Assembly: GCA_021324185.1 (NCBI GenBank)
Contig: JAJPJN010000159.1
Span: forward strand, 1 to 44,268
Direction: 5' to 3'
Source: Terriglobia bacterium
GTDB lineage: Bacteria > Acidobacteriota > Terriglobia > Bryobacterales > Bryobacteraceae
DNA length: 44,268 nt
The notes beneath the pieces were generated by a model. It made no database searches and had not been told where the DNA came from. It was given only the letters and a program-made list of their open reading frames with translations. A program made the position numbers and the translations under genes. Position 1 is the first letter of the stretch. Each line of letters opens with the position of its first letter. Shown piece after piece: positions 4,092 to 30,451 of the stretch.

Positions 4092-4554
4092 TGAAGCTTC
4101 CCCCTTAATTCGCCTCCACCGTACAAAGTTTTTGACGCCCTACATCGAGATAGTCACCAGGAGCGGCTAACTCTTACAGGTGCGGTTCACCTTTTTAGTG
4201 ATTTCAAGAAGTTCGAAAGGATATGGGCAGCGGGAGCCATAAGCATCTCCTGCATGGTCCGCGATCCGGAAACTGCTAGCAGATACGGCCGATAAATCCG
4301 CTTATGTCTGCCGATCTGCCGGAATAAAGCGCCAGGGGGGAAATGGGGGTGATCGCCGCAAGACGCGCATGTCGATTTTCTTGACGCCTTCGACTCGGCG
4401 CATGCCAGCGGCCAGGCTGGCGCTCAGGAGGCCGGAATCAGAAGCCTCGTAGGCGGCGCACGGCCCCTAATCGCAGATTGACGGTACCCGGAGCACGGCC
4501 ACTTCCGTCTTGTTTCCGAGAGCGCTATTTTAAGGCGAGGTGTTGAATCTTTCC
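4092..4554. other. Intergenic stretch with no supported gene
   Basis: About 460 bp upstream of the sigma factor operon and after the DinB-like gene. It must hold the sigma operon promoter (minus strand). I see no convincing -35/-10 pair, no coding frame with a ribosome binding site, and no RNA gene. Confidence 0.5.
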
Positions 4555-5103: not shown

Positions 5104-5283
5104 GCCGGTGGTGCTCCTTCCCCGTTCGATAATACGCTAAGTTAGGCCCGCGACTTGTTGACGTGAAACGCGCATCCCATAGATCGGAGTTCCAAGGTCG
5201 CGTTAAACGCCCATATCGTCGCTTTCACCATCGGTCGACCCTGTTAACCAAGGGTCTAGCGGATTTCAGGCGATCAGTGCTCT

Positions 5284-9252: not shown

Positions 9253-10110
9253 ATGCCGCATTCACATTTCGGCCGGTTCGGTGTCGCACTAGGTGTTGTT
9301 ATGGCGATCGTGCCGCATTTGAGCGGCGCCGATCATGGCCCGGTGTTTGGATTAGCGACCCCAACGAATCCGCAGGGAGGCTGGAGTTTCGACCTCGGCG
9401 CCAACGGGCGTGGTGGGACTGGGGGAGTTACTTCGGCGATCGAGGCCGAACTGAGCTACGGGGTAACGCAAAATCTGAAGCTCGCTGTATCCGGGCCGGT
9501 CGTGTTCGAGCCAGACCCGTATCCACGCTCATCGGTGACAGAAAACACGCCGATCAGCGGCGATTTCAGCGGGCTTGCATGGTGGCGATTTCAAAAAAAG
9601 GATTTTGCTGGCAAGCGGTTTGAAAGTACCGCAGTGGGAGGAATTCTGTTGCCGGGCCCGCAGCAACAGGCCGGAGTTTATCGCGGCCTGAATAGCGGCG
9701 TGGGGTATCTGGGCGGGGCAGTGACTGGCCTGGCTTCGCGCAGCCAATATGTCTGGGCCGGCGCAAGCTATCAGCGATACGCCGAATCCAAGGGCGATCG
9801 CCGACCTGACTTACTGTCCTACACGGCTGTTTACGGCTATCGTCCGCGCTCCTGGCGTACCGACTACCCGCGCTGGGATTGGCGCATATTCGGGGAGTTC
9901 ACAGGCGAGCGGGCCGGGGCGCTTGAGCGGCAAATGGTCGAGCTGCCCGGCAGTCAGGCGAGCCAAATGTTCCTCGGGCCGAGTGTGCTCGGTGTTTATC
10001 GGGCAATCGGGATTGAGGCCGGAATCCAGTTTCCGGTTTATCGGGATGCGGGACCGCTCTTTCCCAAAGAACGTTACCGATTTGCCATCAACTTTGCTTA
10101 TTTCTTCTGA
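9253..10110 (+). CDS. Outer-membrane beta-barrel protein of the metal operon
   Basis: A 285-residue protein with a signal peptide (GVALGVVMAIVPHLSGA) and alternating amphipathic strands typical of small outer-membrane barrels (SAIEAELSYGVTQNLKLAVS, SQYVWAGASYQRYAES). It ends in FAINFAYFF, a terminal Phe and aromatic strand that fits the barrel assembly signal. It starts at ATG 9253 behind AAGGAGG, which is the 3' arm of a long inverted repeat. It lies 12 bp before the HMA gene. Context suggests an outer-membrane component linked to metal binding or transport. No specific family is certain. Confidence 0.78.
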   Translation: MPHSHFGRFGVALGVVMAIVPHLSGADHGPVFGLATPTNPQGGWSFDLGANGRGGTGGVTSAIEAELSYGVTQNLKLAVSGPVVFEPDPYPRSSVTENTPISGDFSGLAWWRFQKKDFAGKRFESTAVGGILLPGPQQQAGVYRGLNSGVGYLGGAVTGLASRSQYVWAGASYQRYAESKGDRRPDLLSYTAVYGYRPRSWRTDYPRWDWRIFGEFTGERAGALERQMVELPGSQASQMFLGPSVLGVYRAIGIEAGIQFPVYRDAGPLFPKERYRFAINFAYFF

Positions 10111-10122
10111 AAGGACTCAACC

Positions 10123-10623
10123 ATGAGAAAGAGATTTTCGCTTATCGCATGCGCTTTGCTGCTCGCGTCCATACCGGGGCGAGCGGAGCTACTCGAAGTC
10201 GATCTATCGATCTTCGGCATGGATTGAATGACGTGCGCCCACATCGTGGATGTGGCATTGAAGAAAGTGCCCGGAGTAGAGGCGGTGGATGTGAGCCTTA
10301 ACAAAGGAGTCGCCAAGATCAAACTGAAGCCGGGCAATGCCGTATCTGTCCCGCAGTTCTGGCAACTGTTGCACGAGAAAGGCTACACGCCGAAAGTCAC
10401 AGCGGTTTCCGTGCGGGGTGAGCTTGCGGGCGGAGCGGGGCGGTTGCAACTGAAAGTTTCCGGCACGAAAGACGTCCTCGATCTCGCTCCCGATCCGAAG
10501 AATGCAGCCGCGTACAACGATGCTGCGAAAAAGATCGGGCAGTCTGTCGTCATTCAGGGCGTCATGCTGCCGGGAAAGGACCTCAAAGCAGTGGTGCCGC
10601 TCCAAGTGGGTCAAGTGCAATAG
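10123..10623 (+). CDS. Periplasmic HMA (MerP-like) protein with in-frame TGA, probable selenoprotein
   Basis: Translation from ATG 10123, with AAAGGA about 7 nt upstream, gives a signal peptide (RKRFSLIACALLLASIPGRA). It then gives LLEVDLSIFGMD, a TGA at 10225-10227 (codon 35), MTCAHIVDVALKKVPGVEAV and the rest of a heavy-metal-associated domain to about residue 95. A second small domain ends at 10623. Family members have GMxCxxC at this spot, so TGA replaces the first metal-binding Cys and gives UxxC. The frame is otherwise open (165 sense codons plus the TGA). An ATG directly after the TGA (10228) has no binding site and would lose both the signal peptide and half of the motif. A hairpin suited to SECIS follows the TGA. 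Most likely selenocysteine (inference). A nonsense mutation is the alternative. Confidence 0.75.
10234..10257 (+). promoter_or_regulatory. SECIS-like hairpin just after the in-frame TGA
   Basis: CCACATC (10239-10245) pairs perfectly with GATGTGG (10249-10255) around a GTG loop at 10246-10248. TG (10234-10235) and CA (10256-10257) can close it further beyond a 3-nt bulge. The loop starts 18 nt after the last base of the TGA. Bacterial SECIS elements are known to sit immediately downstream of the UGA, with the apical loop about 16-37 nt away and a G among the first loop bases. All three hold here. The three-base loop is at the small end of the range. Function is inferred. Confidence 0.6.
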
Positions 10624-10631
10624 GGAGGAAG

Positions 10632-11060
10632 ATGCACTCAACAATGATCGTTGCGAAGCCGCGCTCTCGCTCGGGCGCGCTGAGCTACCTCTCGCTTTTC
10701 ACGTCTTTGGGAACCCTGCTGTGCTGCGCGCTCCCCTCGTTACTGGTCCTTTTCGGATTGGGGGCAACCGTTGCGTCAGTGCTATCGGAAGCCCCATGGC
10801 TGGTCGCTATGTCACATCACAAAAACCGGGTGTTTCTCATTGCGGGGGTCCTGATCTCGGCCAGCTTCGTTTATGTATACGCGATTGGGCCGAGGCTTCA
10901 GGCTCGAACGCGCCCTTGTGAGCCGAGCGACCCGAGCGCATGCGAGACAGCAAGCCGTTTCAGCCGTATCGTGCTCTGGTGTTCGGCCGTTTTGTATTTG
11001 ATCGGATGCTTCACGGCGTATCTTCTTGGCCCGATCCTCGTGCATTTCGATCAAACTTGA
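10632..11060 (+). CDS. MerT-like small membrane metal transporter
   Basis: A 142-residue protein with three membrane spans: one around LGTLLCCALPSLLVLFGLG, then VFLIAGVLISASFVYVYAIG, then IVLWCSAVLYLIGCFTAYLL. The vicinal Cys31-Cys32 pair in the first span and the loop motif RPCEPSDPSACET between spans 2 and 3 match the two Cys sites of mercuric transporter MerT (CC in helix 1; CEPxD...C in the loop). In MerT systems, MerP passes the ion from the periplasm to the first Cys pair. The HMA protein 8 bp upstream is the natural partner here. The binding site GGGAGGA is close to the ATG. The metal (Hg, Cu or another soft metal) is not decidable. Confidence 0.75.
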   Translation: MHSTMIVAKPRSRSGALSYLSLFTSLGTLLCCALPSLLVLFGLGATVASVLSEAPWLVAMSHHKNRVFLIAGVLISASFVYVYAIGPRLQARTRPCEPSDPSACETASRFSRIVLWCSAVLYLIGCFTAYLLGPILVHFDQT

Positions 11061-29079: not shown

Positions 29080-30350
<1,271 letters not shown>

Positions 30351-30362
30351 GCTAGTGAGCAA

Positions 30363-30451
30363 TGGTGGACAGGGAAGGATTCGAACCTTCGTACCTCGCA
30401 AGGAGGGACAGATTTACAGTCTGTTGGCTTTAACCACTCACCCACCTGTCC
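30363..30451 (-). tRNA. tRNA-Tyr (anticodon GTA)
   Basis: On the minus strand, acceptor GGACAGG pairs with CCTGTCC. The anticodon loop is CTGTAAA with GTA. A long variable arm (CCCTCCTTGCGAGG) marks a class II tRNA, as expected for bacterial tRNA-Tyr. The T loop is TTCGAAT, and the CCA is encoded. It is first in the tRNA-Tyr/tRNA-Thr pair. Confidence 0.96.

Follow-up and report, generated by a model that had tools for sequence, protein, structure and literature searches.

The window analysed here, a 44,268-nucleotide stretch of DNA from a Terriglobia bacterium, contains a gene (10123..10623, forward strand) whose in-frame TGA at 10225..10227 is, judging from the sequence and its homologs, almost certainly read as selenocysteine (Sec), where it would supply the first ligand of an HMA site. 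The fuller proposal, that the product is an exported selenoprotein which carries a soft metal through Sec35 and Cys38 and feeds a MerT-like transporter, is less secure as a whole but still probable. Within it, genomic evidence supports the recoding and the conservation of the flanking genes, the fold of the HMA and C-terminal beta domains is given by prediction, and we infer export, metal binding, which metal is bound (Hg, Cu or the like) and which way transport runs.

Gene and predicted protein

The gene, on contig C109, would encode 166 amino acids with Sec at residue 35 and a TAG stop at 10621-10623; its genome totals 4.70 Mb and is 96.85% complete and 0.67% contaminated. Read out from 10123 to 10620, the frame holds the single TGA at codon 35 and no further stop, bearing out the initial annotation, which had placed a lone TGA on the first HMA Cys of an otherwise intact frame. 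The site motif is GMD-TGA-MTC, in which TGA stands for the first Cys of GMDCxxC; the second ligand, Cys38, is encoded by TGC (10234..10236, +), a codon that is itself TGA in UxxU relatives. Upstream of the ATG at 10123 is the sequence AAAGGA (10110-10115), and its AGGA (10112..10115, +), 7 nt 5' of the ATG, resembles a Shine-Dalgarno site. Ordinary annotation would likely stop the gene at codon 34 and so miss the protein.

By eye, the protein begins with a signal-peptide-like stretch (10123..10185, +; RKR, a hydrophobic core and PGRA/EL), and an HMA domain occupies residues 28-88 (10204..10386, +), scoring 39 bits against PF00403 with the TGA entered as Cys (gathering cut-off 24.8). The remainder is predicted to form a C-terminal beta domain (10387..10617, +; beta-beta-beta-alpha-beta-beta), where the pLDDT of the AlphaFold model is about 86-94, the mean for the whole protein being 86; folded from its single sequence, this domain has a pLDDT of 47. 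Structural matches are to MerP (1osd, Z 12.2) and to CopZ-type chaperones and cover mainly the HMA part. In domain and fold the earlier label of 'MerP-like' is apt, but it does not extend to the MerP equivalog (TIGR02052), against which the protein scores 35.1 bits for a cut-off of 92.55. In all, 13 NCBIfam models matched the protein, each of them below its cut-off.

Selenocysteine machinery and distribution of the TGA codon

A lack of Sec machinery in the genome had been named in the initial annotation as grounds against recoding, and this objection falls away. The genome carries a tRNA-Sec (72 bits; ARAGORN anticodon TCA, that is UCA) together with SelB, SelA and SelD (profile scores of 376.7, 500.9 and 364.5 bits), and all four exceed the curated cut-offs.

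Reading of the motifs identified 28 genes from 24 genomes, the window included, in which a TGA coincides exactly with the codon of an HMA ligand Cys; they comprise 14 UxxC genes (one of which, in G047, is decayed), 13 UxxU genes and one CxxU gene. A protein search of 200 relatives matched 46 genomes at E <= 1e-6, with TGA flagged in eight including the window's own genome, and a profile search of 396 genomes of the phylum matched 67; the 396 are a sample of a larger phylum, so the counts are lower bounds. Motifs were read at every place that either search had flagged for TGA, save G524 (one TGA, one TAA), and G462, which was flagged with TGA yet had motifs that read as Cys, was left out of the count. 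The same TGA is present in JAFAUR010000055.1, from a MAG named 'Acidobacteriaceae bacterium' whose protein matches that of G004, and the two were counted once. No relative turned up when plasmid records were searched at the protein level. The nearest kin of the window gene share 85, 69 and 59% identity with it and all have the TGA, which recurs in separate assemblies. The gene is patchily distributed, being present in 2 of the 17 genomes of the window genus (the window genome and G004), and the G004 copy also has the TGA.

G176 (L055, L056) encodes two UxxU paralogs, with TGA at both ligand codons, and one UxxC paralog, while in G564 (L096) Sec (GLAUPFC) and Cys (GLSCPFC) paralogs adjoin at 5217 and 6223. 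The CxxU site of G386 (L104; position 5193 of the reverse complement) reads GYLCGNU and is followed about 20 nt after the TGA by a hairpin that does not reach significance alone (p 0.18). An extra HMA-like frame with the motif GMTUDSC is found in G286 (L089, 6394-8289) by a deiodinase-related protein, the latter recognised with a sub-cut-off score.

Of the 24 TGA genomes, 20 have SelB above cut-off, and so do 170 of the 200 relatives, a frequency among relatives that leaves no enrichment in the TGA genomes. The four genomes short of the SelB cut-off are fragmented or 65-85% complete. In G455 and G478 (72 and 65% complete) the SelB matches are partial and sub-cut-off and no tRNA-Sec match was found, G478 having SelA; G004 has a tRNA-Sec (TCA anticodon) and SelA with SelB not above cut-off; and G056 has a tRNA-Sec (TCA anticodon) with no SelA or SelB match above cut-off. 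For the association of Sec with its machinery, the Cys genomes are the informative side. Homologs bear either residue at the position of codon 35, a comparison that the initial annotation had proposed: TGA in the near kin and Cys in four members of the same clade. In a tree of 32 rows, the window gene falls inside a clade of 14 rows (100/99) made up of ten UxxC and four CxxC sequences. The four CxxC rows (G168, G191, G337 and G569), all of one genus, form their own subclade (100/100) beside G399, on a branch (92/86) that is under the starred threshold in a midpoint-rooted tree with some long branches. In these four genomes, each 99% complete, neither SelA nor tRNA-Sec nor a SelB score above cut-off was found; a tRNA-Sec match in G337 was rejected as the gene is a tRNA-Ile. 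G399, a UxxC genome of the same family, has SelB, SelA and tRNA-Sec. The Cys genus has a fifth genome, G353, whose match is split over two frames and which was kept out of the Cys count; there too, SelB above cut-off, SelA and tRNA-Sec were not found. The pattern of sequences fits a Sec-to-Cys change upon loss of the machinery in the Cys genus, a known type of event (PMC1794560), and as the Cys cases are all in one genus they perhaps represent one such event. Distant Cys HMA homologs are common in SelB-positive genomes.

Recoding versus termination

Were the TGA a real stop, the window gene would be a pseudogene or the product of an assembly or sequencing error. One substitution suffices to turn TGC or TGT into TGA, and the G047 copy does have a frame broken further downstream and a neighbourhood reduced to a remnant. 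G047 apart, however, the relatives' frames downstream of the TGA are open, the same TGA recurs in 24 genomes, and no Sec machinery was found in the genomes that carry the four Cys forms. The part of the window gene 3' of the TGA is under purifying selection (window versus G004: dN/dS 0.17, with 65 substitutions distributed 18/8/39 over codon positions 1/2/3), in line with the earlier remark that the intact frame is not typical of a decaying gene. This selection, and the fact that the same HMA Cys codon is hit in relatives down to 25% identity, place the TGA beyond chance. We therefore reject pseudogene and sequencing error on the basis of the recurrent TGA, the open frames and the purifying selection, and regard a real stop as highly improbable.

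Termination at the TGA followed by a restart at the ATG at 10228, giving two separate peptides, has just as little to recommend it, as the initial annotation had held. A TGAATG stop-start junction does occur in 4 of 11 close genes (the window and three relatives), but these are all of one clade and the codon after the TGA is Ala or Glu in the remaining 7 of 11, indicating that the restart is not conserved. The restarted product would moreover be without the first ligand and the signal-like start, and on these two grounds we reject this possibility. Recoding of the TGA as Sec remains the preferred reading.

SECIS-like hairpin

Bacterial SECIS elements have a set spacing from the TGA and a G in the loop. 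A conserved hairpin is present just downstream of the TGA, as seen from covariation and synonymous-site conservation; in the window it is CCACATC-GTG-GATGTGG (10239..10255, +; conserved core 10241-10253), with the loop from 18 nt after the TGA. The genes were grouped by eye after a constrained test into A3 (11 UxxC genes) and A4 (14 mostly UxxU genes, one UxxC), leaving out three of the 28 genes (G564, the second G321 gene and G386) that belong to neither. The A3 hairpin, AC(A/G)(U/C)-CGUGN-(A/G)(U/C)GU, has a fixed place with its loop from 17-18 nt after the TGA in all 11 genes, and is predicted unprompted by RNAalifold. All 44 of its 44 cells are paired, and two of the four pairs show two-sided changes. 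Its covariation score, which kinship inflates, was reached by none of 500 shuffles and is lower when the partners are slid; two further measures, how many pairs are two-sided and how many pair types occur, are no better than in shuffles (315/500 and 500/500 as high). The A4 hairpin differs and lies four columns further on, with 87% of its cells paired and one pair occurring as GC, CG and AU. Across ten UxxC genes (G047 omitted), the only invariant third positions within codons 1-55 after the TGA are those of codons 5, 6, 7 and 9, all within the hairpin, and the joint chance for three of these codons is ~2e-8 by pooled codon usage with kinship uncorrected. The loop codon GTG is replaced by ATC or ATT in the four Cys genes.

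Folding energy alone does not make the case for a SECIS element, as its tests were weak or null. For the 47 nt after the TGA compared with synonymous shuffles, Fisher p is 0.024 over the 28 Sec genes (3 of 28 below 0.05), with a p of 0.21 for the window gene alone, 0.13 and 0.79 for control stretches, and 0.24 for eight Cys rows that include some distant paralogs (2 of 8 below 0.05, both in G564). With the hairpin constrained, the values are 0.083 for the 28 Sec genes (1 of 28 below 0.05), 0.26 for the window and 0.11 for the eight Cys rows. In the G564 Cys paralog the hairpin is still strong (z about -3, p 0.005), perhaps as a remnant SECIS.

Gene neighbourhood

The HMA gene lies 12 nt after one gene and 8 nt before another on the same strand. 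The upstream partner (9253..10110, +; 285 aa, from the ORF list) looks like an outer-membrane protein by eye, gave no Pfam or NCBIfam match, and has homologs beside the HMA gene in relatives. The downstream partner (10632..11060, +; 142 aa) is MerT-like, with a PF02411 match at E=0.034 (14.6, below the gathering cut-off of 32.9) and a Cys-Cys in its first hydrophobic segment; MerT itself has a Cys-Cys pair in the first membrane segment. Both partners are near full length in 11 of the 15 genomes of the subgroup (the clade plus G047 and G176, the latter for its UxxC copy), in G004 on two contigs. Besides the remnant in G047, there is G056, where the MerT-like gene is accompanied by no more than residues 148-285 of the outer-membrane-like protein; in G150 the MerT-like gene was not detected; and G112 is missing most of the neighbourhood, with nothing left of the outer-membrane-like protein but its final 31 residues.

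Cys-Cys is found in 15 of 16 aligned MerT-like proteins, window included, and Cys-TGA in one (G297). At 4098-4100 of this G297 locus (L091) the MerT-like partner reads LICUTLP, and a perfect 7-bp hairpin with a GGTC loop from 27 nt after the TGA accompanies it, suggesting that the MerT-like partner may itself be a selenoprotein. MerR-type regulators occur some 4 kb or less from the HMA gene in G142, G176, G261, G564 and G286 (5 of 5 tested, chosen by eye from the ORF lists of six loci), all with scores below equivalog cut-offs, and MerTP and P-type ATPase genes are found near some relatives. Elsewhere in the window, the only Rfam gathering matches are tRNA-Thr(GGT) and tRNA-Tyr(GTA) at 30275-30451 on the minus strand.

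Proposed function and relation to known systems

In the mechanism that we propose, ribosomes would read the UGA at 10225-10227 as Sec with the genome's own SelA, SelB, SelD and tRNA-Sec, guided by the small hairpin whose stem starts 11 nt downstream of the UGA. The product, a MerP/CopZ-like HMA domain followed by the C-terminal beta domain, would be exported, and its Sec35 and Cys38 would together grip a soft metal ion. MerP hands metal on to MerT, and here the MerT-like protein would most likely receive the ion at its Cys-Cys pair; the outer-membrane-like protein would let metal in or out. Selenolate is softer than thiolate and forms more readily, properties that would favour ions such as Hg(II) or Cu(I), and the changed soft-metal affinity that the initial annotation attributed to the putative UxxC site is plausible.

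The main rival to this reading accepts a selenoprotein but assigns it to redox chemistry by thiol/selenol exchange instead of metal carriage. UxxC is also a redox motif, the matched structure 1osd is oxidised MerP, and a likeness to thiol oxidoreductases is reported for most predicted selenoproteins (PMC9312934). The HMA fold and site argue for metal carriage instead, as do the MerT-like partner with its Cys-Cys or Cys-TGA and the MerR-type, MerTP and P-type ATPase genes near some relatives. On balance we consider a redox role unlikely, though with a far stronger claim than termination or restart, and favour the metal carrier.

The window protein resembles MerP in being an HMA metal carrier beside a MerT-like gene; to our knowledge, the known MerP has Cys only, and its TIGR02052 model spans 92 positions without a C-terminal domain. 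HMA selenoproteins are already known. NCBIfam model NF041115 (UxxU_metal_bind) likewise describes an HMA-type domain with Sec in place of the ligand cysteines, but spans 74 positions, against the 166 residues, signal-like start and C-terminal domain of the window protein, and the match scores 45.8 for a cut-off of 95. NF045683 (MerT_CopZ_Se) couples a MerT-like part to an HMA part with Sec, as the window locus does, in the form of a fusion rather than two separate genes (score 16.1, cut-off 375). A Sec-containing MerP and a 'putative mercuric transport protein' are rows of the GOS survey (PMC2398784), and MerT-type selenoproteins with a C/SxxU motif appear in a review (PMC13188914); these share Sec in MerP and MerT relatives with the window system. 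The GOS MerP row lists two sequences and no motif, too little to judge sameness with the window family. What is new here is a variant that lies under all 13 NCBIfam cut-offs, extends across many families of one phylum and provides a natural Sec/Cys comparison. By title and abstract start, no recognisable account of the window family was found in the open-licence literature among the matches listed.

Sec as a metal ligand has been proposed and is described as still open in the review (PMC13188914). With Sec and Cys versions in related bacteria that differ in their Sec machinery, what selenium contributes at a metal site can be put to a direct test. Most predicted selenoproteins are redox-like (PMC9312934), whereas the window family would have Sec at a metal site. 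Tentatively, and at somewhat short of an even chance, the loci may belong to an Acidobacteriota selenium metal relay in which an outer-membrane protein works with a periplasmic HMA carrier that has Sec as one or both ligands and with a MerT-like membrane protein that has Cys-Cys or Cys-Sec, one hairpin serving the two UGAs, 9 nt apart, of the UxxU genes. If this relay is true, it would be a selenoprotein pathway for holding and moving metal, and not for redox catalysis.
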